From: Sycon ciliatum
Taxonomy: Eukaryota > Porifera > Calcarea > Leucosolenida > Sycettidae
Assembly: GCF_964019385.1 (NCBI RefSeq)
Contig: NC_088654.1
Location: forward strand, 25,256,941-25,320,940
DNA length: 64,000 nucleotides
Direction: 5' to 3'
The position numbers and the translations under genes are program-made. Numbering within the stretch: position 1 is the first letter of the stretch; every line of letters begins with the position of its first letter. This document shows positions 4,420-63,859 of this stretch, in pieces. The notes beneath the pieces were generated by a model. The model saw only the letters and a program-made list of their open reading frames with translations. It was not told where the DNA came from and ran no database searches.

Positions 4420-4710
4420 CTCCGTCTCAATCTCCCGTATTTAATCTATTTCCTGGTGCCACTTCTGTCCGCTTGGTGTGGACAAAGGTAAAAAAACCGC
4501 ATATCAATGGTGATCCAAAAGGGTATGATATATTCTACAACGAATATGGAGCCACAAGCAATGTTCACAATATACGTGTTGACCCTTCTGTCGCTCAGAA
4601 AATAGTCTCTGATTTAAATTTCAGCACGAATTACACATTCTCAATGGCTGCCATATCATCAGGTGGAAGAGGACCAAATCTAACCCAAACTATTGTTACA
4701 ACCCAGGAAC
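4420..4710 (+). CDS. FN3-domain exon A1 (partial gene)
   Basis: One fibronectin type III domain of 97 codons, presumably extracellular and part of a long adhesion or receptor protein. The acceptor AG is at 4418-4419 (AATATACAG) and the donor is GTAAGT at 4711. Both junctions split a codon after its first base (phase 1-1), so the exon can be skipped or duplicated without breaking frame. The landmarks are FN3-like: a Trp in the B strand (LVWTKV), the NYTFSMAA strand with its Tyr, and the turn SSGGRGP. Two possible N-glycosylation sites (NFS, NYT) fit an extracellular place. The upstream open frame back to 4260 belongs to the preceding foldback repeat, so I start at the splice site. It most resembles exon A3. 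Confidence 0.88.
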
Positions 4711-5261
4711 GTAAGTTTTAAACGAAGAGAATATTGAAGGCTGGGTACCCCCAGCCCCCCCCCCCCCCCTCCCTGCTGCCTCGTCAATAGACTCTATGGT
4801 ATGAATGTAGTGTAATAAGCACTGTTTAGTGATGCTTGTTAAGGCACAAGTTTTTCCTGCGGATAGGTCTGCACAAAGTTCTCTGTCCTTGTGCCTGTGG
4901 TCGACCTACCGTGTCAGCAAACAACACGGAACTTAGCAAATCCATCATCCGGGCTCAGTCCAAACTGTCATGTTTGTTGACCAAACCAGCAAGTACGTTT
5001 CCTTAGCGGGAAATTGCCACGTAACAAGCAGATCTCAGCGGGTTTATGGCTCTCTTTGGGTTTGCAAAACACTCCTCCTGAGTTACCCATATTCGTTCAT
5101 TGTTTGTTTGGGCAAATTTCGAGTGATATCGGGGCCACATTGCGTCGACATCTCAGCGTGGTATCGTTACATCTTTTTGGGGATTAAAAGAAATTCACTA
5201 ATGAAAGTGTTACACCGTGTTATGTTACATCAAAACGAATTCTGTACTTGTGCGATTAAAG
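4711..5261. other. Intron sequence
   Basis: Start of the 4.3-kb intron between exons A1 and B1. It has a C homopolymer near 4757-4769. No element or exon recognised. Confidence 0.5.
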
Positions 5262-5615
5262 CCCTCTCTCGAATAGTTCCCCAGTCTCTAAGAGCTAGTG
5301 AACAAATATGGCCCTCTCTTGAATAGCTCCCCCCCCCCCCCCCGTCTTGTAACCAAGAGCATGTGAAAGTTAGGTGCTCTTTTGGTAATGTTCTTGTCCA
5401 TGTCATCGAACTGGTGGTTTCAGGATCCAAATCGCAGTTCCTGTTGCCCTTTCTCTGGAGTCGTGATAGTTTACAGAACACATTAGGTTCAGTTTTCTTT
5501 GCCTTCTTTGTTTTTATGGTAGATGACGTAAATGTGCCAGCATTGAAAAAATAGTGCTCTCTCTCTCTCTCTCTTGAATAGTGCCCTCTCTTGAATAGCG
5601 CCCCATTTGTGATGC
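5262..5615. repeat. Dispersed repeat with CCCTCTCTTGAATAG motifs
   Basis: The motif CCCTCTCTTGAATAG and variants recur at 5263, 5311, 5570 and 5584, with poly-C near 5327-5343 and a CT run at 5559-5576. The 5262-5300 part (ending CCAGTCTCTAAGAGC) matches the reverse complement of 60334-60366, and ACTATTCAAGAGAGGG at 59625 is the complement of the same motif. These are therefore copies of one family, inverted relative to each other. No protein. Confidence 0.6.
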
Positions 5616-5648
5616 ACATTGAAAAAATAGTGCGCCATTTGCACTAAT

Positions 5649-6681
5649 CGTGAGAGTACTTCCTCCGCGTCAGCGAAATTGTCGCAGTTTGACTAGTGAC
5701 TTGCCACTTGTTACTGACAACTCCATAAGCTAAACCATTCAAAACTTATTACACAGTATGATAGTCTGAAGACTAGAGTAACGTTCCAGGACAGTTTGAC
5801 TGAGAGTTTTCATGCAGAGATGAAGTCTTCGTCGCCGCTGATGTCAATGGACGCAAAAATATCGTTCCGACATATTTCAAGGAAGGTTGAAAGTTGGTCG
5901 CGCCTCATCTCAGACGCTTTGACTTTCTGCACAGGACAAGAGCTGCTATGCTTGTCGTCTGCTAGCTCTGGATGATTTCTACTTCACCACCAACGAAGCC
6001 TAGTAAGAATACACGATCGTTGCCAGGTCGATGATTACCGTCGGCGGAATCACCTCGATCTTGAAATGAACTTGTTTTTAGCCGTGGCATGCCCATTTAT
6101 TTTAGCAGTGTGGTCACAGTTCATGCAGGTAAGTGTACTATCATCCAGCGCGCCCTCTTTTTCAGCATCACTGGTGCAGCACCTGCGTGTGCATCACTAG
6201 CACTTCGTGTAGAGGCTACACGGCTCTTGCAGGTACAATCATGTACTGAGTGTCTCAGCCAGAGCGACAAATTATTATTTTATCGCTGTTGCATGCATTT
6301 GGTTTGCTGACCCCTCGATGTTTCTCCAACTTGTCCAAGCGCTGCTACTTGTTCCACGAAGTCATTCTCACCCCAGCTAAGGTAAAACAGTGATGAGGCT
6401 TGAGTGAATGGCCATAAGCACGAGAAATGTGCAGGCTGCAACGCCTGACTGATCTCGGCGAGTCGAAATTACCATCGCAGCGACATCAGCGAAGAAATTA
6501 CGTCTAGTTCAAAAATTTCAGCTTCCAATAACAGAAAATAGAACTTTGCCGTCACCCTATACTGATGACTATCGCATATCCGATTCCTTGCCTCTGGTAC
6601 GAGTGCTGGTGAGTAAATACCCCGTTTTATGTCAAAAGTCAAACTGCGACAATTTCGATGACGCGGAGGAAGTACGGTAAC
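5649..6681. repeat. Inverted-repeat element, arms about 45 bp
   Basis: The run beginning GTACTTCCTCCGCGTCAGCG near 5656 returns inverted with few changes, ending in ACGCGGAGGAAGTACGG near 6660-6676. The arms are about 0.95 kb apart. No transposase frame lies between them. It is probably a non-autonomous DNA element. Sequence just outside (6705-6745, ending CGTTTCACCCCTAG) resembles the end of the hAT-like element at 42557-43008. Confidence 0.55.
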
Positions 6682-6831
6682 TCGAATTGTTTTCCAAACG
6701 AATAATTCTAGAATATTCGGTGAATTCGTTTCACCCCTAGTTATATGCAATGCCTGCAACTTGAACACTTCGTTTACGGACTACTATTCGGTAAGATTTA
6801 AAACAAAAAAGTGTGATGGCTGCAAAATTAA

Positions 6832-8965: not shown

Positions 8966-9268
8966 GGCCCAGTTTACCTATAATCAACTCCACGGATATA
9001 ACATCAACAACAGTTACTATCAATCTTCAGATTGTTCCAGGACACTATCATTTCTCCCAGTTTTGTTGTAACTTCACGAGGTCTTCAGTGTCGGACATAC
9101 CAATGTCAGGTTTGGATACAGTGAGCATTTGCAAACAAGTTAGCCCCATCATCTTGTCTCCAGTTGAGGAAGATGCCACCTACACAAACACACAATGTGC
9201 CACACAAAATACACTTGGAGTGATTGGACTGCCAAACATGCTTGGTGACTTTAGTACAAGAACAGCAG
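8966..9268 (+). CDS. FN3-like exon B1, cysteine-bearing type (partial gene)
   Basis: A domain-sized exon of 101 codons, phase 1-1. The acceptor is TCTTTAG ending at 8965 and the donor is GTGATT at 9269. It follows the FN3 pattern only loosely and belongs to the B type defined by four exons in this window: a beta-rich start, FCCNFTRSSVSD with adjacent cysteines, a third cysteine in SICKQ, then SPVEEDATY. A fourth cysteine (QCATQN) follows, shared only with exon B3. N-glycosylation motifs (NST, NFT) suggest an extracellular domain. The usual FN3 tryptophan is absent. I infer the FN3 relation from size, phase, alternation with clear FN3 exons and the closing E-D-A-T-Y segment. Confidence 0.82.
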
Positions 9269-11468: not shown

Positions 11469-12083
11469 ATGGCGGCGAAGAAGAGAGCGGCAGAGCCTCG
11501 CAAATCGGCTGGCGAGAGCTGGAAAGAGGTGACGAACCTGGAGTTTGTGAACCCTGGTCGTAAAGCCTTAGTTGCGAATGGCGACGAAGACCAGTTGAGC
11601 CGCAGAGATCGACGCAAGCGAGAAGAGATGATTCGGAAGTGGAAAATGGTCGAAGTCAGTGTTTTCGTCAACAACCGCAGCTACTGTCAGCGACAGCGGA
11701 GCTGTATTTCTACAAACTGCACAGACCTCGGTGGTCTCGCCTCAACGTCCAGATCGAAAAGTGCATGTACGAGTAATGCTAGACGGTGGGAGCCAACGCT
11801 CGTACGCTACATCATCGGTACTGACTCAACTGGATGTGCGCCGCTCCGGTCAAGAACGTGTAGTGATAAACGCGTTTGGCGGCGAACAGCCAAGCCCAAG
11901 CACACTCCGGGACGTGGTCGAACTGGGCATTCAGTGCGTTGCTGGCAACCGGATTCGTGTCAACTGCATCGTCGTTCCATCAGTCTGTGCACCCGTGCAA
12001 AATCAGCACACCACAGATGTAGTCACAGCTTACAAGTCTCTACAGAATCTCAGTCTCGCCGTCAACTGTGGCGGCTCAGCTAG
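11469..12083 (+). pseudogene. BEL1 gag-position reading frame (5' remnant)
   Basis: An ATG frame of 204 codons where gag should start. The first 60 or so residues are rich in Lys, Arg and Glu (start MAAKKRAAEP, later SRRDRRKREEM) and do not look like a BEL gag. After about 11650 this frame only shadows pol, which is read in another frame from 11659. The expected gag central domain (DUF1759-like) and CCHC knuckles, both present in BEL2, are absent. I infer that gag was deleted or replaced. A pyrimidine tract ending TCTTGTAG at about 11426 just upstream could be a splice acceptor. Confidence 0.5.
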
Positions 12084-15000
12084 CATCGACATTCTACTCG
12101 GCGCTGACGTTAATTGGCAGATCGTCACGGGCGACATCGTTCGTGTAGACGATGGGCCAACTGCTCTCGATACTCGCCTCGGATGGGTTCTGTCCGGACC
12201 AACAGGCAGGTGTAATTCAGGCATCATCTCCACTAACGTCGCAACCGTTCACGCTTGCGATGTCGAACCATCTACCGTGCAAGATCCAGACAGTGCTTTG
12301 GTCCAGCTACTCAAGAAGTTCTGGCAGCTTGAATCCATCGGCATCTTGCCTAATGAACCGGACACTCTGCAGCTGTTCCAACAGACCATCCGCTACGATG
12401 GGCAGAGGTACACGGTCAGGTTGCCATGGAGGGAGGATCATCGCGCGCTTCCAGACAATTACAGTCTGTCCGAGAAACGGCTACAGTCAACACTCAAGAA
12501 ACTGCAGAAGTCACCAGAAATTCTGAAGGAATACAATGCAGTAATTCAAGAGCAACTTCAGAAGGGCATCATCGAGGAGGTGCCAACTACAGAGCACGAC
12601 ATGGTGGGCGAAGTACATTACCTGCCTCACCATCCTGTCATTCGGCAGGACAAGACCACTACGAAGGTTCGTGTGGTGTACGATGCCTCAGCCAAGGTGA
12701 AGACGCATCCGTCCCTGAACGACTGCATCCACACGGGACCACCGCTGCTCGAGCAGATCACCAGCATACTGCTCCGGTTCCAAAAGCATGCGGTAGCCTT
12801 CACCGCAGACATAGAAAAGGCGTTCTTGATGGTTGGGATTGAGGCAGCCGACCGCGACGTCCTACGCTTCCTCTGGGTCGACAATCCCACAAGCGCTCAG
12901 CCGGTACTCAAGACGTACCGATTCACGCGTGTTGTCTTCGGTGTATCCGCTAGCCCATTCTTATTGAAGGCTACCCTGCAACACCATCTCGCCAAGTTTT
13001 ATCCCGAGTTCACTACGAAGCTGCTGCGGAGTCTGTACGTGGACGATGTTGCGAGTGGCGGCAACAGCAATGCCAATGCGTTGGAACCGTTCAACCGTGC
13101 CAAGAATCACCTCGCAACAGGCGGATTCAACTTGCGCAAGTTTGTCTCCAACTCCGCTGAGTTGAATGAGATCGTCAATGGTACCGCAGCGACACCACTG
13201 TCGACTAACGGTCTGCCTACTGTCGCCGTGGACAACGACTCGTATGCCAAGACCATGTTGAACGGCTCATCCGCAGCCACCACCAAAGTCCTGGGCATTC
13301 CATGGGACAGGACATCTGACCGTCTTACGTTCAGCGTCGACGAGGTGTTCAGCACGACCAAGGTCGACTCGCCAGTGACTAAGCGCCAAGTCCTATCGGC
13401 GTAAGCCAAGATGTATGACCCCCTCGGACTCCTGGCACCTATCACCATCACCCTCAAGGTATTTCACCAACAACTATGCCAGTTGAAGATGGGCTGGGAT
13501 GACCCATTGGAGGGAGAGTGTCTTGGCAAGTGGCAGACGATGATACGGGAATTGAAGGCCGTGCCACCGGTCTCATTGCCACGGCACTACGCAACAGACG
13601 CGAACGGCAACATCACACGTGTCGAGCTACACGGTTTCTGTGACGCGTCCGAGAGAGCCTATGCAGCAGCCATCTACATTGTGTTCACGACGGAGGTGGG
13701 CACTTCAGTACAGCTAGTCGCTGCAAAGACTCGTGTTGCGCCTCTGAAGCAACAGACCATTCCCCGTCTCGAGTTGCTTTCAGCACTGGTATTGGCTCGC
13801 CTGATGGCATCAGTCTCCTCAACTTTGGCAGATCTGAAGATTGATCAGATTCACTACTGGTCAGACTCCCAAGTGGCACTGGCGTGGATAGCTGGAGTGG
13901 AGCAAACTTGGAAGCAGTTTGTTGAGAGCCGGGTTACAGAGATCCGACGTCTCGTTCCGACGTCCTGCTGGAGCTACTGCCTAACATCTTTGAACCCAGC
14001 TGACCTGCCGTCACGAGGAGTGAAGCCCAGCGAGCTCACCAGTACCATCTGGTACACTGGTCCGAAGTGGCTACACGAGCCACAACCCCGAGCAGAAGTC
14101 GACAGCCGCTCCGCAGCATCGCAGTATGAAGAAGTCGAGAGAGAGCGGAAGGCAACACCTACCACGGTCATGGCAGTCGGCTGCACCTCGCACAGTAGCA
14201 TCGAGAAGGTCATCGATGTGAATCGATTCAGCTCACTAAGCAAACTGCTGTGTGTGACCGCTTACGTCCTGAAGTTCACAGAGCTGTTGAAGCGTCGCAG
14301 CAAGACCACACATCTGTCTGCGAAGGATCTCCACAGAGCACATACACTGTGGATGGTCAACATTCAACAGGATCTGTCCAAGAACAAGACGTACCCTGGT
14401 TGGTATAAGGAGTTCGGCCTTTTCACCGACGAGAGTGGCATGCTACGGTGTGGCGGACGTCTGCAAAACGCTGGACTGTCGCATGATCAAACCCATCCGA
14501 TTTTGCTGAACGCGAACCACCCGTTGACACGTCTAGCCGTCCTGCAGGCGCATGACACGGTATGCCACAATGGTGTCAAGGAGACACTAACCGAGCTACA
14601 ATCCCGTTACTGGATCATTCGTGGTCGGCAATTCGTACGAAAGATTGTCGGCCAATGCACCGTTTGTCGACGTCTCGAGTCGAAGCCGTACGCTCCGGAA
14701 GATTCACCTCCCCTGCCGGAATTCAGGACCAAGGTGGACTTCCCCTTTAGTTACGTCGGTGTGGACTTCGCAGGGCCACTGTTCGTCAGGGAAGGAGCAG
14801 ACACCAAGAAGGTGTATATCGCGCTCTTCACCTGCGCCGTCAGCCGAGCGCTCCATCTAGATCTTGTGCCTGACCTATCAGCGGAAACGTTCCTCCGTTG
14901 TTTCAAGCGGTTTACGGCACGATTTGGCATCCCTCGGCACGTTACCTCTGACAACGCCAAGACCTTCAAGTCAGCGGCTAAGTCACTAGTGGGTTTGTTC

Positions 15001-15837
15001 GGTCTGCCGGAAGTCACCGACTATCTAACAGCACACGGCATGGAATGGTCGTTCAACTTGGAGAAGGCTCCATGGTGGGGTGGATTTTATGAACGGATGG
15101 TCCGATGTGTAAAACGCTGCTTGAGGAAGATTCTCGGCCAGGCACGCGTCACGTACGAAGAACTGCTCACCTTCTTGCTCGAGGTTGAAGCAGTCCTCAA
15201 CAGTCGCCCTCTGACATTTGTGTCAACTGAAGATGTCGAGGAGCCATTAACACCGTCCCATCTACTGTATGGTCGGCGCGTCCTGTCATTTCCGACAGTT
15301 TGTCCTGATGACGTCGATGTCGCGTCAATTCAACGAGATGAGCTTCTACACCGACTCACCCACCTCAACACAATCCTGGAGTATTTCTGGTGCAGATGGA
15401 GAAGCGAGTATCTCCTCGAACTCCGAAACGCTCACAGGCGAGGCAATCAGCACGACCAAGGAGCAACAGTGTGCGTCGGTGATGTAGTAGTCGTGCACGA
15501 CGAGAATGAGAAGCGTGGCCTGTGGAGACTAGCGTTAGTCGAAGACCTCATCCGAGGCAAGGACAACAAGGTCCGAGGAGCGGTGATAAAATGCTCTTCC
15601 CGCGGAGGACGAGCATCCACCATGCGTCGCCCGGTACAGCGACTGTACCCCGTGGAGGTAGCGAGCCCTGCACCAGTCGCCGATGTTCTCGGCAAACAGC
15701 CACAGGCAGTTGTTGCAGACCCAGCCTCTGCTAGCCAGCAATCCGGTGCGCACCCCGGCGCCATGCGTCCAAAGAGAGATGCTGGCCGGTCAGCTGATAA
15801 AGCCAGACAGCAACTGATTAATGCCGGCTCCTTATAG
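11659..15837 (+). pseudogene. BEL1 pol: protease, RT, RNase H, integrase, with one stop
   Basis: One frame encodes the polyprotein, interrupted only by TAA at 13402-13404. Protease-like VMLDGGSQRSY comes near residue 40. The RT has DIEKAFLMV and the catalytic LYVDDVASGG near residue 460 (codons at 13036-13047). After the stop come MYDPLGLLAP, RNase H (FCDASERAYA, RLELLSALVL, YWSDSQVALAW), the integrase zinc module (VCHNGVKET and CTVCRR) and the integrase core with Asp in VGVDFAGP, Asp in TSDNAKTFK and Glu in GGFYERMVR. It would copy the element RNA and integrate the DNA. The stop lies between RT and RNase H. All other catalytic residues I can check are present. Confidence 0.88.
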
Positions 15838-18403: not shown

Positions 18404-19615
18404 TCACGCATAGCGAGCGGAGGGACGGACGTCACGACGATCGCACAGACCGCAGACTTGCCGGCCAGCAATCGGCTCCACGCCGTGCTCGGCAGGTGTG
18501 TCATCGCCATCGGATTGGTCACCAGCCGCGACAGGTTGTGATGGCGAGGGCTTCAGAAGGTCAGCATTGATAACCTTCTCCCTGCCATTCACGTGTCGGA
18601 TGTCAAAGGTCGAGGTGCCCACGACTCTTTTTACCATCCACCCGGTCTCGTAACGCAGCGCCAGCTTGCGCTGCCGTGTCGGCTGACGGAGCAGGACGGC
18701 ATCTCCTACGTCATAAGCCGACTGTTCAGAGACTTCGACGACAGAATCGGTCGTAGAGAACTCTGCTTCAACGAGGTCACGAAGGGCTGTCCGCTCTCCT
18801 AGCCGCGTCACCCATGCGCTGAGGCTACACACCTCCTGATCAGTTGCAACGATGAGATCTCGCGGCAGCCAGCCAGTCATGGCAACCATCAATGCAACGC
18901 CGGTTGCAGAGTGCGGGCGCGTCCTGTAGTAGAGGAGGAGGAGCTCCAGCTCAGACTTCCAGTCAGACGCTTCTAACAGCACCTTCCGCATCAAGGTGAT
19001 TAGTGTCCTGTTCATACGCTCCGCAGCTCCTTGGGACTGCGGGCATCGCACCGCTCCGGTTCTGACTTCCATGCCGAACTGCTGGAAGAGGGCATCGCAG
19101 ACGGCATTCCTGAACTCCGTGTCATTGTCCATGCGAACGATGTCCGACGAACCCCAGTGGCAGCAGATTGTCGTGAACGCGGCGGCGACACACTCCGCGT
19201 TGTGACGGCGAAGAGGCACAACCTCAGCCCACTTCCTGAACTCATCAATACAGATAAGCACGCAGTTAAACTTGCCGCTCTTCTCCGCACCAAGTTCCAG
19301 CGTGTCGATCTGCACGACACTCCACGGGCGGCTTGGGACTTCCGTTCTGGCCTGCGGCGATGCTGGCCCTCTCTGCCCACTGGCTGCTCTGCATCGCTCG
19401 CAGCTTTGGCAGTGACTCTGCCAGCTCTCGGCGATTGACGGAAAGTAACAGCGACTGCGTAGCATCTCGTACATCACGCCCCAACTGGCATGTCCAGATG
19501 CGCAATGGGCGGCTTTTACGACCTTCGGGACAAGCTTGGTCGGGATCACGGGCACCGCTACCACGCCTTCAACGGGCAGTTTGACGCTTCGGCAAAGGAC
19601 GCCACCGTTGATCAC
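18404..19615 (-). CDS. Gypsy1 integrase
   Basis: An open frame of about 403 codons with the integrase that would insert element DNA. The N-terminal zinc module reads HCASGHASWG with CQSCERC downstream. The catalytic core has Asp in VQIDTLELG, Asp in VRMDNDTEF (most Gypsy integrases have DNG here) and Glu in GAAERMNRT. The C-terminal part (YDVGDAVLLRQPTRQRKLAL, then DIRHVNGREKVINADLL) is the usual beta-barrel region, with no chromodomain. The frame is continuous with the RNase H tail upstream except for the TAG at 19619-19621, so it is the 3' end of pol and not a separate gene. Confidence 0.85.
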   Translation of the reverse strand: MINGGVLCRSVKLPVEGVVAVPVIPTKLVPKVVKAAHCASGHASWGVMYEMLRSRCYFPSIAESWQSHCQSCERCRAASGQRGPASPQARTEVPSRPWSVVQIDTLELGAEKSGKFNCVLICIDEFRKWAEVVPLRRHNAECVAAAFTTICCHWGSSDIVRMDNDTEFRNAVCDALFQQFGMEVRTGAVRCPQSQGAAERMNRTLITLMRKVLLEASDWKSELELLLLYYRTRPHSATGVALMVAMTGWLPRDLIVATDQEVCSLSAWVTRLGERTALRDLVEAEFSTTDSVVEVSEQSAYDVGDAVLLRQPTRQRKLALRYETGWMVKRVVGTSTFDIRHVNGREKVINADLLKPSPSQPVAAGDQSDGDDTPAEHGVEPIAGRQVCGLCDRRDVRPSARYA

Positions 19616-19898
19616 GAGCTACTTGCTGACTTTCTTGAACGGACCGGCAATCAACTCAGGCGTGCCAGCCTCGATCAGCTCAGTAGCGGAATCAATGTCA
19701 GCATCAACAAGCTGACCCCTAGCGATCTCTTCTCTCGGCACAGGGCCGACTACCGCTGGAACAGTGGCGGCTCCGACGGCGGTTTCCTTGGCTGCCGTTT
19801 TCTGACACTTTGACCACTCCGACGGCACGCGGGTCAGCCGGTCGGCCGGGTTATGCTCGGATCGGACCCACTCCAGTTTGACAGCTAAGCCGGTCGAC

Positions 19899-22301
19899 TC
19901 AACCAGGTCTTCGATGACTTGAAGGCGGCGCTGGACGAGTACCTTGAAGACCGCTCACCTTCACACGGCAGACGTTGCCGACTACTTGTTCCAGCCATCC
20001 GAACACGGTCTTCGAATCGGTGATCAGCCGAACTGCCTCCAGCTTCCACTCCGCAGCAAATGTCAAGCCGCGGAGCGCGGCGTCAAGCTCAGCGACGTTG
20101 ATGTGCTTGCTGTCGTTCGCGTCTCTCAGCCACGAGCTGTCCTCGATGACTTTGCCGTCGAGCTGCAAGACGACTCCTACTGCCAGGTCAGACGCATCGC
20201 AGAACACGGCCCAGTCGCCGACAGCCGTCGACGGGACGCTCCATACGCCGTGTACTGGATCTCTGCTTGCGACCTTCGCTTCTAGGTCCTCGCAGCACCG
20301 GACGGTAGCGCCGGACACGGCAACATCCCAGTGATCCCCCGCGCATGCGAGCGTCTTGAGCCACGCGCAGGCCGGACAAAGCCAGGCACACACCGGGTAG
20401 TGGCTGGTCAGACGTCCAGTCCACTTGAACACGCCACGCTTCGTCAGCGGACGGTCGAAGCTGAGGTCGACACCGTCGCGGCGTGCCCAGTTGACCACGT
20501 CGGCCGCCGAAGTGGACAGCTGTAGGCCAAGCACGCGGGCAGACGGCAGAGACTCGGCAGGCTTAGTCGGCAGGCCATAGCGTAGCAGCTCCGCAGCCAC
20601 GGCTTCGCGGATCTGCGCCGGCATCAGGATGTCGTCAACGTAATTGTCGACTCCAGGCCACTTCCGCGTGACCCAGCGCACGATCATGTCCATGAACTTA
20701 GGCGCGATGGAGAGACCGAATCCCATGCGCGTCATCACATACATCTTCCCGTTCCACACGACGACTTGATAGCGCAACAGTGACGGGTCAACGTGCACTT
20801 GCAGATAGGCCTTGCGGATGTCGACCAGCTGATAATCCGCGTCGCAGCTTGACCGCCATTTCCGGATCTTCTCTGCACAGGCCGGGGCATCGGTGCCTGG
20901 GTTGGACTTGATCAGCGAATTCAGACCACGATAGTCCAGGCAAGGCCTGACGGGCGTGGAACTCTTGTGCTCTTGCGCCTTCGCCAGCAAGGGCAACAGG
21001 CTCGCCATGGACTGCCGGATCGTGCTCAACAAGCAGCCGTTCTTCACCCAGGAGTCGACCTCGTCATAGTATAGCGACACCTGCTCCGCCGTGAGTTTGT
21101 TCCGCGCATACTGGCCAATGCCGGACCCAACAGGAGCTGTCGGCTGCTGGTCTTCCCACGCCCATGTCAGCATCCAACGCTGTGCGACGCAGTCCCAGCA
21201 GACTTGACCGTCATCCGGCGACAGGGTGACGTCATCTCCGTCCTGCTCGACAGTCACACGGCGCGACGGATGCTTGTCGGCGGCTGCGGCAACAACGGCA
21301 GGCTCCTTCGTTTGACCAAAGCGCACTCCGTCCAGCACACCGTTGTCGTCGTAGCTGAGCTGTACGCCACCAACACCTGCCACAATGTCGGCTCCAATCA
21401 GCACGTCGGTGCCAATGACCTCCAGACTCCGCGTCACGCATGCCACGACAGACACACAGGGTAGAAACACAGGGCCGTCCTGCCGCTGGACGTCAAGGTT
21501 GACGGTGCCGATCAGGTCGATCTCGCTACCATCCAGGGCAACCATCCCGACGGACACGTCATCACTGTACGGGATGTTGCGGGCCTGTAGAAACTTCGCA
21601 GAGACGAGCGAGTGACTCGCACACGTGTCGACGACGGCCATCGCTCGCGCCCACTCCTGGCCAGGACCGTTGGCAGGTCGGATGTCCATGTACACGCGCG
21701 GCAGCGCTCCTCTAGACCGTGCAGCAACCGTGCAGAGGCAGGGGTCGCTGCTGCTGCTCTGTGCAGCTGCGTCCTCTCCCGCGGCAGCTGCGCCCCTCTT
21801 GCGGGCTAGCCACGGCTTCCGCTCAGGGCAGTCCGCCTTGACGTGCCCAACGCCATCGCAGAAATAGCAACTCAGCTGCGTCGCGCCCTTCTGGCGACCG
21901 CCACCTCCTGGTCCACCGCCACTCCGTGGTGCACCCCGCTGCAGGTGAGGGCAGTTGCGCCTGATGTGGCCGACTTCCTGGCAGTTAAAACACACTCCGT
22001 TTCCAGTGGAGGTGCCGCTCGACTGGGCGCTAGACGCTGGCATCGCAGCAGCCACGGGCTGTTGTACTGACTGACGAGCGTCGGTGGCAGCAGTCCGCAG
22101 TGCTCGGATCAGGTCCGTACAGCCGCTCACGGAGTATTCTTTCCCGGCCATGGCCAGCCTCAGCTCGCGCTGAAATTCCGCCGGAAGACCGCACTCTATT
22201 TGCTCGACGACCATCGGGTCCTTATCATCGGATGCGTCGTGGCCAGCCAGCCCCGCCAGACGCTGCAGATCGGCGATGTAAGCGTCGACGGCCTCGTCCA
22301 C
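19899..22301 (-). CDS. Gypsy1 gag C-terminus, protease, RT and RNase H
   Basis: About 800 codons. Gag ends with two CCHC knuckles (CFNCQEVGHIRRNC and CYFCDGVGHVKADC). The protease site reads VVDTCASHS, where DTGA is usual, so Cys replaces the active-site Gly. The RT has CLDYRGLN, LVDIRKAYLQV and an intact NYVDDIL. RNase H has FCDASDLAVG, ELDAALRG and ITDSKTVFGW. The frame ends after a frameshift near 19940; the rest of RNase H continues in another frame (19622-19940) to a TAG and then into integrase. The frame is open upstream only to the TAG at 22335-22337, beyond which gag continues. Confidence 0.85.
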   Translation of the reverse strand: MDEAVDAYIADLQRLAGLAGHDASDDKDPMVVEQIECGLPAEFQRELRLAMAGKEYSVSGCTDLIRALRTAATDARQSVQQPVAAAMPASSAQSSGTSTGNGVCFNCQEVGHIRRNCPHLQRGAPRSGGGPGGGGRQKGATQLSCYFCDGVGHVKADCPERKPWLARKRGAAAAGEDAAAQSSSSDPCLCTVAARSRGALPRVYMDIRPANGPGQEWARAMAVVDTCASHSLVSAKFLQARNIPYSDDVSVGMVALDGSEIDLIGTVNLDVQRQDGPVFLPCVSVVACVTRSLEVIGTDVLIGADIVAGVGGVQLSYDDNGVLDGVRFGQTKEPAVVAAAADKHPSRRVTVEQDGDDVTLSPDDGQVCWDCVAQRWMLTWAWEDQQPTAPVGSGIGQYARNKLTAEQVSLYYDEVDSWVKNGCLLSTIRQSMASLLPLLAKAQEHKSSTPVRPCLDYRGLNSLIKSNPGTDAPACAEKIRKWRSSCDADYQLVDIRKAYLQVHVDPSLLRYQVVVWNGKMYVMTRMGFGLSIAPKFMDMIVRWVTRKWPGVDNYVDDILMPAQIREAVAAELLRYGLPTKPAESLPSARVLGLQLSTSAADVVNWARRDGVDLSFDRPLTKRGVFKWTGRLTSHYPVCAWLCPACAWLKTLACAGDHWDVAVSGATVRCCEDLEAKVASRDPVHGVWSVPSTAVGDWAVFCDASDLAVGVVLQLDGKVIEDSSWLRDANDSKHINVAELDAALRGLTFAAEWKLEAVRLITDSKTVFGWLEQVVGNVCRVKVSGLQGTRPAPPSSHRRPG

Positions 22302-22334
22302 CTTCAGCCGACGCTGAGGGAAACACTTGTAGGC

Positions 22335-32829: not shown

Positions 32830-33120
32830 CTCCAAGTGTGGCACCTGGCAACTTTGCCTTGGACTCCAGAACAGCAACAACAGTAACACTCAGCTGGACT
32901 GCTGTAGACCCATACAAGCTGAATGGAAAGCTGGTTGCATACCATGTTGACTGTGCATATCAGAATGGCAGACATGTGACATCGGCCAGTACCAACAACA
33001 CCCATGCAACACTCTCAGGACTAACTTTTGATACAACATACAACTTATCACTGGTCGCTAAATCAACCGGTGGTACCGGCAGCTACGAGAGTCGCCTGCA
33101 AAGTTCTACCACCCAGGATG
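32830..33120 (+). CDS. FN3-domain exon A2 (partial gene)
   Basis: A 97-codon FN3 domain, phase 1-1, with acceptor GACAG ending at 32829 and donor GTAAGA at 33121. It starts APSVAPGNFAL. FN3 landmarks are TVTLSWTAVDPYKLNG (Trp), VAYHVDC, the strand TTYNLSLVAKS with its Tyr, and the turn TGGTGS. It carries one Cys (HVDCAY) at the place where exon A4 also has one, and these two are the closest A pair (SWTAVDPYKLNG against SWSAVNPYELNG). An N-glycosylation site (NNT) and similar motifs fit an extracellular domain. It lies only about 80 bp from the BEL2 LTR remnant. Confidence 0.92.
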
Positions 33121-34812: not shown

Positions 34813-35106
34813 CACCGCCAGCACCCATGTTCATGGTTTCAACATCAACAACATGGATATCTGTGACTTTCACCAAACTGACTGGACAATTCGATGTTGC
34901 AAATTACTGCTGTGACTTCACGCAACTTTCCGTGTCCGGAACTGATTCAAAGGAAAAAACCATACGTCTTTGCAGCCAAACCATATACCTCAATCTGACT
35001 GGAACTGAAGAAGATGCCACGTATAGCCTGACAGCGTTTGCCAACAATACAGAAGGGCATATTGGCGAGAATGCTACAATGAACAATGTGATAACTAAAC
35101 CAGCAG
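34813..35106 (+). CDS. FN3-like exon B2, cysteine-bearing type (partial gene)
   Basis: A 98-codon exon, phase 1-1, with acceptor GCAAACAG ending at 34812 and donor GTACTC at 35107. B-type signature: ANYCCDFTQLSVSG, IRLCSQTIY, then GTEEDATYSLTAFANN. It has three cysteines only, lacking the fourth of B1 and B3. It shares the AFANNT segment and the KPA ending with B4 (GFANNT, KPE), so B2 and B4 form a pair. N-glycosylation motifs are NLT, NNT and NAT. The exon begins APPAPMF like the A-type exons. The upstream open frame to 34680 is intron. Confidence 0.85.
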
Positions 35107-41178: not shown

Positions 41179-41469
41179 CTCCAGATGATCCCCCGGGAGC
41201 ACTGACCATCGGATCAAAATCACCTACATCTATCTCTATTTCCTGGACACCAGTTGATTATCTGCGTCTGAACGGGGAATTACTGGGTTACAGTGTGAAA
41301 TATACAGATGAAGGAATGGTCGTAACCATGTTCAATGTGACCCTGTCAGAGAAAGCTAACATACCCGGCTTGGACCCAGGTTATACATACAACATTGAGG
41401 TAGCAGCAATCTCAACTGGTGGTATTGGCCCATATACTTCTCCGGTAAAAGCTACCACCACACAAGAAT
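41179..41469 (+). CDS. FN3-domain exon A3 (partial gene)
   Basis: A 97-codon FN3 domain, phase 1-1, with acceptor TTCTGCAG ending at 41178 and donor GTAAGT at 41470. It begins APDDPPGALTIG. Landmarks are ISISWTPVDYLRLNGELLGY (Trp), the strand YTYNIEVAAIS and the turn TGGIGPYTSP, ending TTTQE like A1. No cysteine. NVT is a possible glycosylation site. The first ATG-initiated frame begins only at 41295, but the splice acceptor and the FN3 N-terminal strand place the exon start at 41179. Confidence 0.92.
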
Positions 41470-42079
41470 GTAAGTCCGGACTGTGAAGTCAGCACAGACC
41501 AACAAGAAATGGATAGGTCACGGGTATAGCCAGAAATCAACATCACAGTAAAAAAAACTAGTTTACTGGCACTCCTGGACACCTTCAAGTACACACGCAC
41601 ACTCATATCACACCCATCCACACGAGTCATTTGCACACATGCATGCACAAACGCACACACAGACACACATGCACGGACACACACATACTGTGTTATCTCC
41701 ATTATAAGCCCGCGCCTATATTTTTTCAACCAGTCCGGATTAGAGACTGGGCTTCTACTAGAGACTGGGCTTATAGTTTTTCAACCACCTGGTACATATA
41801 AATTACCTATTATTTTTCATTGTATCAGTAGCACAAAGTTTCCTAGCAGGTACCGAGACTGCAGTTTTGTGCTTCCAGGTACACTCAGTCTGAACATTAG
41901 ATTTCAGGGATCACAGACCTTTACCACAGCATGTGTTTATGTGATACTGTGTGATGTCAAACATGCATGGACATGATCCATACAGTTCTCCTTTATAAGC
42001 CCTGCGCTTGTACATCTTCGAAGCCCTCTTGGAGTGCGCTTATAATAGAGACTGGGCTTCTACAAGAGACTGAGTTAAT
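41470..42079. other. Intron sequence with GAGACTGGGCTT repeats
   Basis: The motif AGAGACTGGGCTTCTAC and variants recur at 41742, 41759 and 42047, with TATAAGCCC(T)GCGC at 41704 and 41993. This is probably a decayed short repeat. No gene. Confidence 0.4.
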
Positions 42080-45729: not shown

Positions 45730-45732
45730 CGA

Positions 45733-45750
45733 ATCCCACTTCTGACACCA
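45733..45750 (-). other. Gypsy2 primer-binding site (tRNA-Leu type)
   Basis: Minus TGGTGTCAGAAGTGGGAT directly follows the LTR. It is complementary to the 3' end of an animal tRNA-Leu as I recall it. Confidence 0.75.
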
Positions 45751-45987
45751 TGTAGTGGTTCTACAAACGCACCAAAGACATCTTGTAACTAGCTTCGTTA
45801 CTACAAATCACAAGTGTGTGGGAATACAGAGAACGACAGAGAGATCAAAGGAAAAGCCAGGCAGGCAAGTACAGCTAAAGTGCGTACGGTACAACTGGCA
45901 TGTCGCACAGCGCGGCCGGATGAATGCATACATGTTACATAAAAGGATACAATGACAAACAGTGGGATGTGCATCCACAACTACAAC
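45751..45987 (-). repeat. Gypsy2 5' LTR, outer end interrupted
   Basis: Same as 43908-44139 up to GCATCCAC, then ACAACTACAAC instead of the normal end. The remaining AACTACA lies at 47224-47230. Confidence 0.75.
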
Positions 45988-52196: not shown

Positions 52197-52502
52197 ATGC
52201 GCCAAAGCCAAGCTTTTTTGTTGAGATATTTCCGACAAAGGTCATCGTGAACATCTCTGCAAGCACAGGAAATTACCGTTTCTCCAAGTTCTGCTGTTAC
52301 TTCACGAGGTATTCCGTATCTAACATACCAAAGTCCAACAGGCATAAGGTGACGGTTTGTAACCGTACTAGTCCCATTGTCTTCTCACCTGTTGAGGAGG
52401 ATGCCAGTTACGGTAACCCGCGGCCATACTGTGTAATAAAGGACACACGTCCAGTTGACGGATATCCCACATTTATTCAAAACTTCACCACACCAGCAAC
52501 AG
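52197..52502 (+). CDS. FN3-like exon B3, cysteine-bearing type (partial gene)
   Basis: A 102-codon exon, phase 1-1, with acceptor TCTGTGCAG ending at 52196 and donor GTAAAT at 52503. It begins DAPKPSFFVEIF. B-type signature: FSKFCCYFTRYSVSNIPKS, VTVCNRTSPIVFSPVEEDAS and then Y. A fourth cysteine follows in PYCVIKD. The closest relative is B1 (FTRSSVSDIP, SPIILSPVEEDA), which shares the fourth Cys and the extra length. NIS, NRT and NFT are possible glycosylation sites. The classic FN3 Trp is missing, as in the other B exons. Confidence 0.87.
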
Positions 52503-57662: not shown

Positions 57663-57950
57663 CTCCACATGTAGCCCCGTCAGATATACAATTCAATTCA
57701 AGCACAGCTACAACTGTCCATATCAGCTGGTCGGCAGTGAACCCATACGAGTTAAATGGAGTACTGGTGGGCTACAACGTCACATGCTGGCAAGGTACAA
57801 ACCTGATAACATATGTGCGCACTACAACAGAGAACGCGAACGTGACTGGCTTGAAATTCAACTCCATGTATAAAGTTTCAGTTGCAGCCATCTCATCAGG
57901 AGGGCTAGGTGTTTACTCTAACTACACCAATGTCACTACATCACAGAATG
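57663..57950 (+). CDS. FN3-domain exon A4 (partial gene)
   Basis: A 96-codon FN3 domain, phase 1-1, with acceptor CTATTTGCAG ending at 57662 and donor GTAAGT at 57951. Starts APHVAPSDIQF. Landmarks are TVHISWSAVNPYELNG (Trp), VGYNVTC with the single Cys shared with A2, the strand MYKVSVAAIS and the turn SGGLGVYSN, ending TTSQN. Glycosylation motifs are NVT (three) and NYT. The near match to A2 supports the block duplication. Confidence 0.92.
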
Positions 57951-58779: not shown

Positions 58780-58787
58780 AAAAGAAG

Positions 58788-59065: not shown

Positions 59066-59530
59066 TTATTTGAAAAGTGTGAGTGCTACAACATTTTCTT
59101 TTTGCTTGCATAGCACAGGGTCACGTATACGAATATAAACAGCTTCCAACACCTGGAACTGCTTAAAGAAACGTGCGCAACAAATAACACTGAACCAGGA
59201 ATCGTCAAACAACTTACGACAATCCGGACTGGACACCAAATGCTTGTAGATGGCAGACTTCCTCTTGTCGATATCAAACTCCTCCTCGTCAGTATCCTTC
59301 TCGTCCTCCACTTCCTGATCCTGCTCACCCTTGCTGTCCTCCTGACCATCCTGTTCACCCCCATCATCATCCTCCGCCTCCATCTCCTCTCGCCACCGCT
59401 TCTTTCTCTTTGACGCGTTCACTGCTGCGCCCGTACTTTCACCTGCCTCTCCTGGTCCGACCTTCTCGATTTTTCTCAGTCGTGCCTTCGCTAGTCTCTG
59501 GCTTCTCCTCAGATCCGTTTTGATCCCGAA
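59066..59530 (-). pseudogene. Penelope-like element: second GIY-YIG C-terminal half with acidic tract
   Basis: The minus frame 59066-59422 (118 codons) ends with SAIYKHLVSSPDCRKLFDDS, VLEAVYIRIRDPVLCKQKEN and ALTLFK, closely matching 35437-36114 and the GIY-YIG C-terminal half of Penelope-like elements (Glu in LEAV). It is preceded by an acidic tract (DDDGGEQDGQED, VEDEKDTDEEEFD). Upstream, after a frame change near 59430, lies a basic stretch. 3' fragment without RT. Confidence 0.7.
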
Positions 59531-59619
59531 ACCACCAGTGCAGTGACATGGACAAGAACGTTAGCAAAATATCACCTAACTTGCACGTGAGCTTGGTTAC
59601 CAGCGGGCGTGGGGGGGGG

Positions 59620-60380
59620 GGGATACTATTCAAGAGAGGGCTTTATTCCCGTAGCTATGCAGAAGACATTACTTCAGTAACGTCTGGCGCTAGCCAGGGT
59701 CCACACAGCTTTAATTTGGTATTTGTGTGTTTTTTTTGTGTCACGCCTGGCGCTCTCACGTATCTGATGGCAAAAAAAGCATAGGGATGTTATAAATTTT
59801 TCAATTCTCCTATTTTTTTTTCAGGCATATCCTGGGATTCGAACCCGCACTATTGCCCTATATGCATTCCCCCATACACTTCGCATTCATACCCATTCTT
59901 CCAAGTTGCTTCACGTTATGATCTTGCGTTTGAAAGCCCTATTTGAATATTGCGGGCAGCTGTATGTGGCCAGCTGTGTTTGATGGTACGGTACAGGAGA
60001 CGGTGTCGTATTACCCTCGATCGTACTTGTCCCGTACCTATCCCCTACCGTACCGTACCATCAAAGACGGCTGGCCACAATGCATATTCAAATAGAGCTT
60101 TCAAATGCAAGATCATAATGTGAAGCAACTTGGAAGAATTAGTATGTATGCGAAGTGTATCGGGGGATGCATGCAGGGCGCGATAGTGCGGGTTCGAATC
60201 CCAGGTTATGTCTTAAAAAAAGGAATTTTTTAAAGAATTTATAACATCCCTATGCTTTTTTTGTCTAGGTCATCAAGGCAAGAAAGCATAGCGTAGGGCC
60301 CTGAGCTTCCAAGCTCTCTCGTTTTTTCACTGGCTCTTAGAGACTGGGGCACTATTCGAGATAGGGCACTGTTCAAGATT
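59620..60380. repeat. Dispersed repeat related to 5262-5615
   Basis: The outer parts are inverted copies of motifs in 5262-5615 (ACTATTCAAGAGAGGG at 59625; GCTCTTAGAGACTGGGG at 60334). A palindromic element lies inside. A G run precedes it at 59609-59620. Confidence 0.55.
59769..60265. mobile_element. Palindromic element with a perfect B-box motif in each arm
   Basis: Arms of about 200 bp: AAAAAAAGCATAGGGATGTT at the left end mirrors AACATCCCTATGCTTTTTTT at the right. Each arm carries GGTTCGAATCC (plus at 60189-60199; complement at 59833-59843), a perfect Pol III B-box consensus. The spacer holds GGTACGGTAC-type motifs. No coding capacity. Confidence 0.75.
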
Positions 60381-60505
60381 TTTTGGAATTCTTTATACTC
60401 ACGATGGCACCATCGCCAATTAGTGATAAGTTTATGAGAAGGGGAGATGCTGTGGGTGAGGCTGTGGGTTATGCAGTTGGAAAGTGATTTACATCACTTT
60501 GAATT

Positions 60506-61000
60506 TTACAAGTATGGGAAAGGGTGAGCGCTGCAGGAGCAGATCGAGTTAATTAGCAGTGAGCAGGTTTCTTGTTTGAAATCAGGTCGGGAGGAGACGT
60601 CACGAATGCTAGCAGGGAGGGCATTGTAGTATTCTAGGGACTTGTACAGTGGGGAGTCTTTACAGCGGTCGGTTCTGGTGGGTGGGAGGCGCCAAGTGCA
60701 TGTGTGTCGAAGGCTACACTGGGGCGTAACTTGAGCGGGGTGTTGAGCATGCGTATGGGTTGTGGTGCATATTGGTAATTTATGGAGTGTGCAAGAAGGG
60801 TGAGCTTTACTTTGTGACGAGAAAACTTGTGACATTGTCCGCCATTTGAGCCAATGCAGCAGTGCTGAATGATGCGGAGGAGTGAAGAGGGGGAGACGGA
60901 GGCAAATTCTGGCCGCCTTGCTCTGGATTCGCTCAAGGCGGTCACGGGCTGTGATTGAGAGCGGGGTGACAGCAATGCATGCGTATTCAATTAAAGGCAT
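60506..61000 (-). pseudogene. LINE reverse transcriptase C-terminal fragment
   Basis: The 164-codon minus frame reads PLIEYACIAVTPLSITARDR, LERIQSKAARICL, HHSALLHWLKW, then SPLYKSLEYYNALPASIRD. This is the thumb and C-terminal region of a CR1/Jockey-like LINE RT. The catalytic part is missing upstream and the end is free. Different LINE type from 38541-40308. Confidence 0.72.
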
Positions 61001-61400
61001 GTATACGCATGATAGGTGTTTTGTAAATAAGAGAGAGAGACAGTGACTTAGTGTGTAGAATTGATTATAGCCTAAAGAGAAAATTGAATATATTTACAGC
61101 TTTCTTCAGCACAAAGTCAAGATAGAGCTCTTATCGCGCGAGTACGGTAAATCATGCAACAGAAAGGGCCAAAAAATCAGGAGAAGCAGCATGGTAAGTG
61201 GTGAGCATGGGTGAGTGGGCAGCAAGGGAGCGCCTGAAAACAATCATACATTCCTAGCCACGACCGCTCAACTGGGCTAGAGGAAAAACCCGCCTTCCGG
61301 CCAAAAAAATATCTATGACTGTTATTACTTCCTGCAACGCCCACTGCCAGTCGGACCCAAGAATAGAGAAAACAAGAAATTGTATGTAATATACGGGGTA

Positions 61401-61610
61401 CTGTAAATATACAAAATTTCGGCGCTGCAAAATTTCGGCACTTCACGATTTTTGACATTTCGGCGGCGATTTATTTTCGGCGTGGGGTAGAGGGCATGGT
61501 ATTGCGACAGATGCTGTGAAAAATTTCATCGGCGTTTTAAATTAGGCGTTTTGGGTCGGTGCCGAATATAGCCGAAATTAAATAGCTGCCGAAAATTTGT
61601 ACATTTACAG
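61401..61610. mobile_element. MITE with CTGTAAATATACAAAATTTC ends
   Basis: CTGTAAAT-type ends (right complement CTGTAAATGTACAAATTTTC), flanked by TA at 61399-61400 and 61611-61612. Repeated TTTCGGC motifs inside. 210 bp. Confidence 0.75.
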
Positions 61611-62037
61611 TATGTCATGATCGTAAGCCACAGACATCGGCATAGAATATCAAAATGTCCAGTGGAAGACCCCTTGAAACCGGGGTTGGTGGGCGGGCAA
61701 CTTCAATTACCACGAGGAAAACAAAGACCACGATGGCAGGTTCAATGGAGTTGCGCAGAACAAGAGCAAACGCACGAAAATATTGGTGAGTGAAAAGTAC
61801 GCTTTTTGCTCTCTTTCGCTCAGCCATGGAAAACAAAACTTCACCATTGTGGTCAGCAGCCTCAAAACCAAAATTGAGGCAAAAATAAGTCTGTGACAGT
61901 TCACATGTAACAGAACATAAGTGTTATCAAACATTATCATTTATCCAATATCCCGAATCGCCAAAGAAGTTGGATACGTGGAATTTGGCTGCAGATTGCA
62001 TACTATTTATGCTAACCTTACTTTGACTTCATGCAGA

Positions 62038-62116
62038 GCTAGCTAGTAGCTACTGACTCATGTGCATGACTTGTTGGGCTAGCTAGTAGCTACTGACTCA
62101 TGTGCATGACTTGTTG
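62038..62116 (+). repeat. 40-bp tandem duplication upstream of exon B4
   Basis: A unit starting GCTAGCTAGTAGCTACTGAC occurs twice (62038-62077 and 62078-62116), identical as far as I can read, 15-95 bp before the 3' splice site. Each copy has CTGAC, a branch-point-like motif. Confidence 0.85.
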
Positions 62117-62131
62117 TCGTGTGGCTTGCAG

Positions 62132-62428
62132 TTCCACCAACTCCAAAGATCACATCTAACTCATCAACTCCAGCAACAATTACTGTGGTGTTTGGCGCAC
62201 TGACTGGTCATTTCACAATTCATCGGTATTGCTGTCTGTACCACCGTGAAAGAGTCTCCGGGACTCCATCGCCAACAACCTCTACAACGGTTTGCAGTCA
62301 AGTCACAACCATCATACTGAAAAACCTGGAGGAGGATGCAACGTACTCCATAGAGGGGTTTGCCAACAACACTGCCATGAAGATTAGCCCACATACAATG
62401 CCATTCAGTCTCAAAACTAAACCCGAAG
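62132..62428 (+). CDS. FN3-like exon B4, cysteine-bearing type (partial gene)
   Basis: A 99-codon exon, phase 1-1, with acceptor GGCTTGCAG ending at 62131 and donor GTTGGT at 62429 (a weaker donor than in the other exons). Starts VPPTPKITSN. B-type signature: HRYCCLYHRERVSGTPS, TTVCSQVTTIIL, NLEEDATYSIEGFANNT. Three cysteines as in B2, with which it also shares GHF..YCC spacing and FANNT. NSS and NNT are possible glycosylation sites. Confidence 0.86.
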
Positions 62429-62993
62429 GTTGGTGATAAGTAGCAATGCCAGTAATGGGCTGAATGGCTTCCTCAACCATAGGATGTTACCTAAGAAATT
62501 CTGGTGGTCTGTGCCCCTTTAGAACTATCATTTGAATAGATTTTTGGTCATTACGCTAAATGTCCCTTTCAGGGATAGGGAATGGAATCAAGTGTGTCGT
62601 ATTCCTCGCCCGAAAAAGACTCATTTTGGTCAGTTCCGACAAAGTAGATTGTGGCCCAATGGGGTAAAAATCATCCAAAACCGTACATGTGCTGAAAACA
62701 ATTCATGCATCCTTGTTTTCCTCATGCATGGCCACGGATTCCAAAAAATGTGAATTTGACGAGAATTTTGCTCTGCGCCCAGGGTGTATTTCCGAGTCAA
62801 AATGCCATATTCCTATCAACTCGTTACATGGAATACGAGCATAGAACGCTATTCCTCACACTTCCTCATTCTTTTCTTCAGGGTGTCTGTGAGCGGTTGG
62901 GATGCCATTCTGATCATTCCCCTCAAAGCAGGACAGAGTTAGTTTCCTTATTCATCATGTCCCCGGTCGCTGAACCCGCAGACTTTGCATGCA
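62429..62993. other. Intron sequence
   Basis: First half of the short 1.1-kb B4-A5 intron. Nothing recognised. Confidence 0.45.
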
Positions 62994-63376
62994 CAGGGGC
63001 GTAGCACCCGCTACGACTGGTACGACCATGGCCATACCACTTTTCGAAAAGTGTGGTCCGTCCGGAACGTGCAAAACCGTAATAAAAAAATCAGGATCCA
63101 TCGATGCATATGCGCATCAGACTTTGACCTTTTTCTAGACTCGTACTCGTAGATCTGCCATGCATCTGTGCATGTCCATGCACGTCTCTTCTGACCGTGA
63201 AATAATTCAATGACTTTATAAACTGTGCCAGAAGTGTGCCAGAAGTTCCCAGAACGCAGGATTTTGTGTCTTTTTTACAACATTTCCCCGGGGGAGGTCC
63301 CCCACCCCCCTCCAAAACGGCCTTCGGCCGCGCCGACCTTCGGTCGTACCACTTCCAAAACCCCTCCTACGCCCTG
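62994..63376. mobile_element. hAT-like MITE
   Basis: Ends CAGGGGCGTAG and CTACGCCCTG, typical of hAT elements. Flanked by TGCATGCA (left) and ATGCATGA (right), an imperfect 8-bp repeat. 383 bp; the ORFs inside are spurious. Confidence 0.7.
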
Positions 63377-63574
63377 ATGCATGATATTTTACTCAAAATG
63401 AGGATGATATTTCATCTTGGGCCTTCACTAAAATGACTGGATGAAGAAAATTCCTGCATTTTGAGCACGTACTTTTGAAGTGAGAAACCGAATATAGAAA
63501 AGCCAAATGTGACTATCATCGCCGCAAGCTGATAGCTAAATGTTCCTGGCTATGTATTTTTGATTCTGACACAG

Positions 63575-63859
63575 CCCCATCTGAGCCACCCGCATCTGTA
63601 AGCATCACCAATGTCAACAGAACATCACTGACAGTAGTATGGAGGGAAGTACCCTTGCTTGGTCGCAATGGTCCAATCACACACTATCTGGTCAAGTACA
63701 ATAACAGCCATGACCGACGTGTTGGAAGTGATCAGCTCTCACTCACGCTGCATCACCTTCAGCCTAACACAAACTACAACATCAGTGTATCGGCTATAGG
63801 TCACGGAGGTCAAAGTGGACCTTATAGCAGTGAGGAGATTGTCAAAACACTCGAAGCTG
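63575..63859 (+). CDS. FN3-domain exon A5 (partial gene)
   Basis: A 95-codon FN3 domain, phase 1-1, with acceptor TCTGACACAG ending at 63574 and donor GTAAGA at 63860. Starts APSEPPASVSI. Landmarks are LTVVWREVPLLGRNGP (Trp), ITHYLVKYN, LQPNTNYNISVSAIG (Leu and Tyr of strand F) and the turn HGGQSGPYS, ending KTLEA. No cysteine. The gene continues beyond the window; by the alternation a B-type exon would be expected next. Confidence 0.92.

Follow-up and report, generated by a model that had tools for sequence, protein, structure and literature searches.

The DNA analyzed here is a window of 64,000 nucleotides from the calcareous sponge Sycon ciliatum (C13:25256941-25320940, C13 being contig NC_088654.1), in which five canonical fibronectin type III (FN3) exons, here called A, and four cysteine-bearing FN3-like exons, here called B, follow each other in the order A-B-A-B-A-B-A-B-A. 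Their arrangement suggests that they encode the central portion of the ectodomain in one large gene for a single-pass receptor, referred to below as W, and we consider it very probable that this gene has grown by the copying of exon pairs and exon blocks in phase. In particular, a recent duplication has copied B4 and A5 together, and the domain trees suggest that four exons had been copied in an ancient event. The nine exons are as follows (window positions are 1-based; E values are those for Pfam fn3).

4420..4710, + strand: exon A1, canonical FN3, 0 Cys, AG/GT phase 1-1, E 2e-7
8966..9268, + strand: exon B1, cysteine-bearing FN3-like, 4 Cys, AG/GT phase 1-1, without Pfam match
32830..33120, + strand: exon A2, canonical FN3, 1 Cys, AG/GT phase 1-1, E 1.2e-11
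34813..35106, + strand: exon B2, cysteine-bearing FN3-like, 3 Cys, AG/GT phase 1-1, without Pfam match
41179..41469, + strand: exon A3, canonical FN3, 0 Cys, AG/GT phase 1-1, E 3.5e-16
52197..52502, + strand: exon B3, cysteine-bearing FN3-like, 4 Cys, AG/GT phase 1-1, without Pfam match
57663..57950, + strand: exon A4, canonical FN3, 1 Cys, AG/GT phase 1-1, E 3e-14
62132..62428, + strand: exon B4, cysteine-bearing FN3-like, 3 Cys, AG/GT phase 1-1, without Pfam match, opening the recently duplicated pair
63575..63859, + strand: exon A5, canonical FN3, 0 Cys, AG/GT phase 1-1, E 1.8e-16, closing the recently duplicated pair

The strict alternation of the nine exons had been proposed in a first-pass annotation, and we confirmed it by splice sites, phase, the Pfam matches of the A exons and a profile scan. 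Each of the nine exons is bounded by an AG acceptor and a GT donor, has phase 1 at either end and counts a multiple of three nucleotides (9/9). The cut-off of PF00041 (fn3) is reached by all five A exons, with E values from 2e-7 down to 1.8e-16, and by none of the four B exons, which likewise stay below the cut-off of every other Pfam family. When the profiles of both classes were run over the whole window with E values up to 0.1, the nine known exons and no tenth were returned, the single extra match being a weak B match overlying A2. The motifs pointed out in the same annotation, FTRxSVSxIP and SPVEEDA in B1 and B3, FANNT in B2 and B4 and SWxAVxPYxLNG in A2 and A4, are present, as are the cysteine counts of four, three and one given for these three pairs.

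The B exons share a pattern of their own, with a CC pair, a third cysteine about 21 residues later and EEDA-Y in B1 to B4, the CC being replaced by CV in B-type matches from other contigs. The AlphaFold2 model of B4, built from 11 sequences, has seven strands and a predicted local distance difference test (pLDDT) score of 92.8; compared with the PDB, its best matches are FN3 domains, with NCAM FN1 first (E 3.6e-6) and sDscam FN1 giving TM-scores of 0.79-0.84. Furthermore, the B profile found two PDB chains only, both FN3 and both weak (E 0.036 and 0.23). On this modelled fold, obtained for one of the four B exons, B is a divergent class of FN3. A known non-FN3 family is ruled out for the B exons by the lack of any Pfam match over the cut-off, and chance or misread frames are ruled out by the splice phase, the Pfam matches of the A exons, the B4 model and the conservation in paralogues. 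In database searches, the B profile gave seven matches, all on ENA contigs, the best of which differs from B3 by one residue across the exon (compared by eye), and the tail exon described below gave one match, on a contig whose length (292,930) equals that of the contig of two of the B matches. No RNA family reached its gathering score in the DNA examined.

Growth by pairs is visible at the edge of the window, where self-comparison revealed a tandem duplication whose first copy carries exactly B4 and A5.

59420..64000, ending at window-equivalent position 64671, + strand: first copy
window-equivalent 64667 to about 68626 (C13:25321607-25325566), + strand: second copy, starting 0.7 kb past the window

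The two copies lie head to tail and match in five pieces with 96.4-97.8% identity, the copied exons being B4' at C13:25323401 and A5' at C13:25324471. The second copy is shorter than the first, which indicates that stretches have been lost or gained after the duplication.

We then considered the relatives of W in the same genome (one assembly, 538 Mb in 313 contigs), which were collected by searches with fn3 (150 of 462 candidates scored), B3, B2, A1, the tail exon and an exon of a protein tyrosine phosphatase (PTP). Judged by exon order, there may be about eight related genes; the names P1 to P9 are ours, and which exons belong to one gene is inferred.

C13 24.915-24.995 Mb: P1
C13 24.752-24.820 Mb: P2
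C13 25.437-25.54 Mb: P3
C13 25.110-25.197 Mb: P4
C12 22.529-22.554 Mb: P5
C13 24.537-24.563 Mb, minus strand: P6
C13 24.673-24.685 Mb, minus strand: P7
near C13 24.59 and 24.63 Mb, minus strand: P8 and P9, partial copies

With B3 as the query, 40 matches were obtained in this genome, self included, and A1 matched at 97-100% identity in P1, P3 and P4 and at 48-51% in P2, P5 and P7; one B4 match is present in each of P1 to P6. Phase 1 sites were found at both ends of 76 out of 76 domains, of the 91 named in the family, by a script that sought such sites near the domain ends and is thus biased to a positive answer, the donors of B6 in P5 and B1 in P7 looking doubtful.

The arrays of these copies differ by steps of two or four exons, apart from a truncated B1 in P5. 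In P1, a pair By-Ay (By at C13:24962062, Ay at C13:24963084) lies between A4 and B4, and in P6 a By-Ay pair (By at C13:24563378, Ay at C13:24561574) precedes B3-A4 in place of B2-A3. The array of P7 reads A1-B1-A2-B2-A2-B2-A2-B2-A2, with A2-B2 present three times, and in the remoter relatives on C11 the array consists of two B-A pairs. In P5, B1 is followed by A4, and A2, B2, A3 and B3 have no match. In P5, moreover, the A1 match contains a TGA, and the truncated extra B1 lies beside an intact one (C12:22529309, C12:22532277), as if these exons were decaying.

As to the order itself, strict alternation is one of the 126 possible orders of five A and four B exons. Mean identity is 39% between domains four apart, 33% at a spacing of two, 20-26% at odd spacings and 38% at a spacing of eight (one pair). 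In an exact permutation within classes, 160 of 2,880 orders were equal or better by score and 226 of 2,880 by identity, so that a period of four is only suggestive from the nine exons and becomes firmer once the paralogues are added. The joint tree, which comprised 86 of the 91 named domains (without four rows of P9 and the final B exon of P6), separates A from B with a support of 100/98 and joins B1 with B3 (100/100, as in the tree of the 38 B rows), A2 with A4 (99/92), A3 with the Ay of P1 and P6 (97/89) and A5 with A6 (97/88). B2 joins B1+B3 (98/93), and B4 is left outside.

Five constrained joint trees were compared with the approximately unbiased (AU) test on 85 rows, with a different alignment and model from those of the joint tree. 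Two joint groupings of neighbours were rejected, with p 1.6e-4 for A1A2, A3A4, B1B2 and B3B4 and p 1.8e-9 for the other. Among single pairs tested on the joint tree, B1+B2 (p 7e-6) and B3+B2 (p 6e-6) gave very low values, compared with A1+A2 (p 0.049), A3+A5 (p 0.057) and A2+A3 (p 0.13). The first-pass annotation had read the exon order as the record of a duplication with a period of four, and that reading is upheld by the split of the two classes, the B1+B3 pair and the joint rejection of neighbours. It had further expected three sister pairs, of which B1+B3 is found in both trees, A2+A4 in the joint tree, and B2+B4 in none, even though the B2+B4 constraint is not rejected (p 0.21). Likewise, A1+A3 is not recovered, the constraint not being rejected either (p 0.28 in the joint tree and 0.22 in the tree of the 43 A rows). 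Taken together, the period of four is firm through the B exons and weaker through the A exons, and more than one register is compatible with it.

Several histories may account for this pattern. In the one originally proposed, A1-B1-A2-B2 was copied once to A3-B3-A4-B4 and A5 opened a third block. The splits of A1 and A3 from A2 and A4 and of B1 and B3 from B2 and B4 agree with the joint tree, and its four pairs, held jointly, are not rejected (p 0.217), but A1+A3 and B2+B4 are missing from the trees, and in P1 By-Ay follows A4, with Ay grouping with A3. Its last part does not hold, as A5 groups with A6 and was copied together with B4, and we regard this exact history as unlikely. In another register, a copying of B1-A2-B2-A3 would have given rise to B3-A4-By-Ay, the arrangement found in P1, W having later lost By-Ay, and B4-A5 and B6-A6 would be older pairs. 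The support for B1+B3, A2+A4 and A3+Ay speaks for it, and its p value of 0.51 is the highest of the five constrained trees; however, B2+By reaches only 47/0 in the B tree, and since the pair of P6 occupies the position of B2-A3, By-Ay may have arisen as a B2-A3 variant and reached P1 by exchange. We can therefore hold this register no more than tentatively. The version in which B4-A5 makes up the second half, implying A3+A5, was rejected (p 0.025).

It is also conceivable that no block was ever copied, and that single A-B pairs were repeatedly gained and lost by unequal exchange, the period reflecting the order of gain or conversion between B1 and B3 and between A2 and A4. The pair steps in W, P1, P7 and the C11 relatives fit such a history, as do the mosaic paralogues described below, which imply frequent exchange. 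However, P5 is without four consecutive exons, and the agreement of B1-A2 with B3-A4 across two adjacent pairs is most simply explained as one copying, so that a history of pairs alone seems rather doubtful to us.

Growth of a receptor gene by in-phase copying of exon pairs and blocks, the reading that we favor, has to be weighed against several observations. The limits of the gene are deduced from how the exons are ordered and spaced and from their strand, and a signal peptide was not located. Within the nine exons, the excess of period four over period two misses significance at the 5% level, and downstream of the window the alternation stops, at A6-A7. In the tree of A rows, A2+A4 forms no branch, the long A7 group intruding, although constraining the pair costs 0.2 log units; moreover, the neighbour groupings A1+A2 (p 0.12), which the first-pass annotation had named as a refuting result, and A3+A4 (p 0.09) are not rejected among these rows, so that the joint rejection of neighbours stems mainly from the B exons. 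The By-Ay pair occupies different array positions in P1 and P6. Finally, copies as alike as W and P1, or P2 and P3, could be unpurged haplotypes, which would make some of the paralogue comparisons allelic but would spare the W/P4 mosaic and the tandem copy of B4-A5.

The paralogues are mosaics with respect to one another. Slot by slot, the synonymous divergence of W from P4 amounts to 0.01 for A1 and likewise 0.01 for A3, to 0.12-0.14 from A5 to A7, and to 0.51 for B4, 0.91 for A4, 0.96 for A2, 1.13 for B2 and 1.57 for B3, with saturation for B1. The A3 island extends over 2.3 kb of exon and intron with 95% identity (C13:25136353-25138705 versus window 39640-41974), its first 0.67 kb being a repeat spread genome-wide; since it covers both exon and intron, it points to shared DNA and not only to constraint on the protein. 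Purifying selection behind the similar slots of W and P4 was ruled out, as synonymous sites and introns track the same islands. Across 11 slots, the only deep differences between W and P2 are those at A1 and B1, and P3 combines the A1 of W (100%) with a B1 of the P2 class (95%). P2 and P3 are identical in DNA at A2 (288/288), B2 (291/291) and B3 (303/303), and show 98.6% identity at B4, 95% at A4 and 86% at A3. The A3 region of P3 is 97% identical to that of W over 3.3 kb including the exon, whereas the exon itself reaches 86.5%. Among the 44 slots compared, 29 had alignable flanks, and in 18 of these the exon is more diverged than the flanks, most clearly at A5 of P5 (35/279 versus 2/200) and A4 of P2 (17/285 versus 2/394). 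This excess is suggestive, and exon-sized gene conversion is its simplest reading, although diversifying selection is also conceivable.

The nine exons may be assigned to one gene because strand, phase and order are kept in the paralogues. Downstream of the window, B4' and A5' are followed by B6, A6, A7, a last B exon and, about 1 kb after it, by an open reading frame (ORF) encoding a transmembrane segment followed by a tail that contains several tyrosines (C13:25351533-25352108). Upstream of A1 there is an FN3-like exon that scores weakly, below the fn3 cut-off (E 0.0024), and is preceded by 12 nearly identical sushi exons in tandem, the first of which is partial and three of which were tested against Pfam.

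C13:25212745-25247864, upstream of the window: sushi exon array, several exons about 1.55 kb apart

It looks as if this N-terminal part of apparently the same gene were also being amplified. Long ORFs resembling transposons, with the look, by eye, of a reverse transcriptase, integrase or transposase, sit in the introns of the window, chiefly in the 23.6-kb intron between B1 and A2.

11632-15837: transposon-like ORFs
18404-22334, minus strand: transposon-like ORFs
26777-32097, minus strand: transposon-like ORFs
36541-38040: transposon-like ORFs
44287-45807, minus strand: transposon-like ORFs

The family appears to carry two kinds of tail. The tail exon matched nine places in the genome, the best being W, P1 (99%), P5 (97%), P2 (92%) and P6 (43%). 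The other four matches are weaker, and none of the nine lies at P3 or P4. By eye, the tail of W contains YGAV, YETV, YADV and YETT, of the core YxxV type, and no strict immunoreceptor tyrosine-based inhibitory motif or activation motif (ITAM); YETV-x9-YADV comes near the ITAM consensus spacing and falls outside it. A PTP exon follows both P4 (C13:25188876-25189091) and P3 (C13:25528738-25528953), with 72 residues identical in protein. Used as a query, it gave 22 genome matches, four of them in the C13 cluster and all four following P4 and P3; no PTP motif was seen for the window gene in L021-L023. P4 matches PF00102 with E 2.6e-12 (at 25188615), and second, weaker PTP matches, each with an in-frame stop, lie at 25196538 (P4) and 25540161 (P3). 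On a single strand, P4 presents the FN3 exons A7 and A8, a transmembrane-like ORF at 25172777 and the PTP match, with weak immunoglobulin (Ig)-like ORFs intervening, which blurs the gene limits; these were noticed at C13:25174234 (E 0.029) and 25181871 (E 0.013), after the transmembrane-like ORF and before the PTP exons.

P3 and P4 apparently end in a tyrosine phosphatase, and W, P1, P2, P5 and P6 in a tyrosine tail. P2 and P3, which have A2, B2, B3 and nearly B4 in common and yet, judged by exon order, apparently different signalling ends, resemble paired receptors. It is possible to hypothesize a family of paired receptors arrayed in tandem, in which shared FN3 modules, some of them identical in DNA, are set on opposite ends, a phosphorylatable tyrosine tail or a phosphatase, exon-sized cassettes are swapped, FN3 takes the place of Ig in the recognition of self and non-self or of a partner, and the A/B array is a cassette format that keeps frame and order; we put this forward as a speculation that is more probably wrong than right.

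For growth by exon copying, we suggest the following course. The receptor would consist of sushi exons, the weak FN3-like exon, the alternating FN3 exons and a transmembrane exon with a short tyrosine-rich tail. As each exon encodes a single domain and is flanked by phase 1 introns, runs of whole exons could be copied or lost without a break of the frame. The array would be altered by pairs or blocks when one A exon exchanges unequally with another A exon, or one B exon with another B, or else when introns break. Such exchange of like with like would preserve the alternation automatically, and since it yields steps of two or four exons, no selection for alternation would be needed. Ancient copying of four exons may have made B1 and B3 sisters, and probably A2 and A4 as well. 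The product may be a receptor for adhesion or recognition, the ectodomain modules of which are swapped among tandem paralogues. It would signal by means of phosphorylated tyrosines, and a tyrosine phosphatase would be carried by sister genes whose ectodomains are similar.

How domain repeats have grown must usually be deduced from the faint likeness of old domains. In this one family the process can be followed at several ages, from an old period of four, through the gain or loss of pairs among paralogues and the loss of four exons, to the fresh copy of B4-A5, the break points and introns of which are still readable. A cause for lasting alternation is also suggested, namely, that exchange between like exons cannot break a two-class order. 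If the reading of paired tails were true, an FN3-based case would be added to the few known clusters of invertebrate recognition receptors. We have not recognized such a receptor family in the open-access literature that we searched.

In the FN3 and Ig super-repeats of titin, a long-range periodic order of domains has been fixed by block duplication in a muscle protein with two domain superfamilies; different from titin, the classes that alternate here belong to one fold, in a receptor. Block duplication of FN3 domains, which was the main idea of the first-pass annotation, has precedents; more unusual features are that two classes alternate strictly, together with a fresh copy of an exon pair, and that the family is mosaic and has two tails. 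According to the part of their work that concerns FN3, Bjorklund, Ekman and Elofsson (2006, PMC1553488) found expansion mostly in units of four domains by multi-domain tandem duplication. Compared with the repeats treated there, the present case has one domain per exon in phase 1-1, two alternating FN3 classes and a fresh two-exon copy with readable break points. The R3 receptor tyrosine phosphatases, as outlined in PMC5336234, have many FN3 domains, most of which are encoded by a single exon flanked by phase 1 introns, and a single PTP. W and its relatives share the many phase 1-1 FN3 exons, and P3 and P4 seem to be PTP-ended; however, W has a short tyrosine tail and no PTP match, and P4 and P3 show the second, weaker PTP match with its stop. 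As far as the review PMC12065747 treats them, the fester co-receptors of Botryllus have a sushi domain and sometimes core YxxI/L/V motifs in the tail. The sponge genes resemble these co-receptors and the Alr receptors of Hydractinia in being clustered and apparently single-pass, and the fester co-receptors also in the sushi domain and the tail, but differ from both in having ectodomains built of FN3 and not of Ig.

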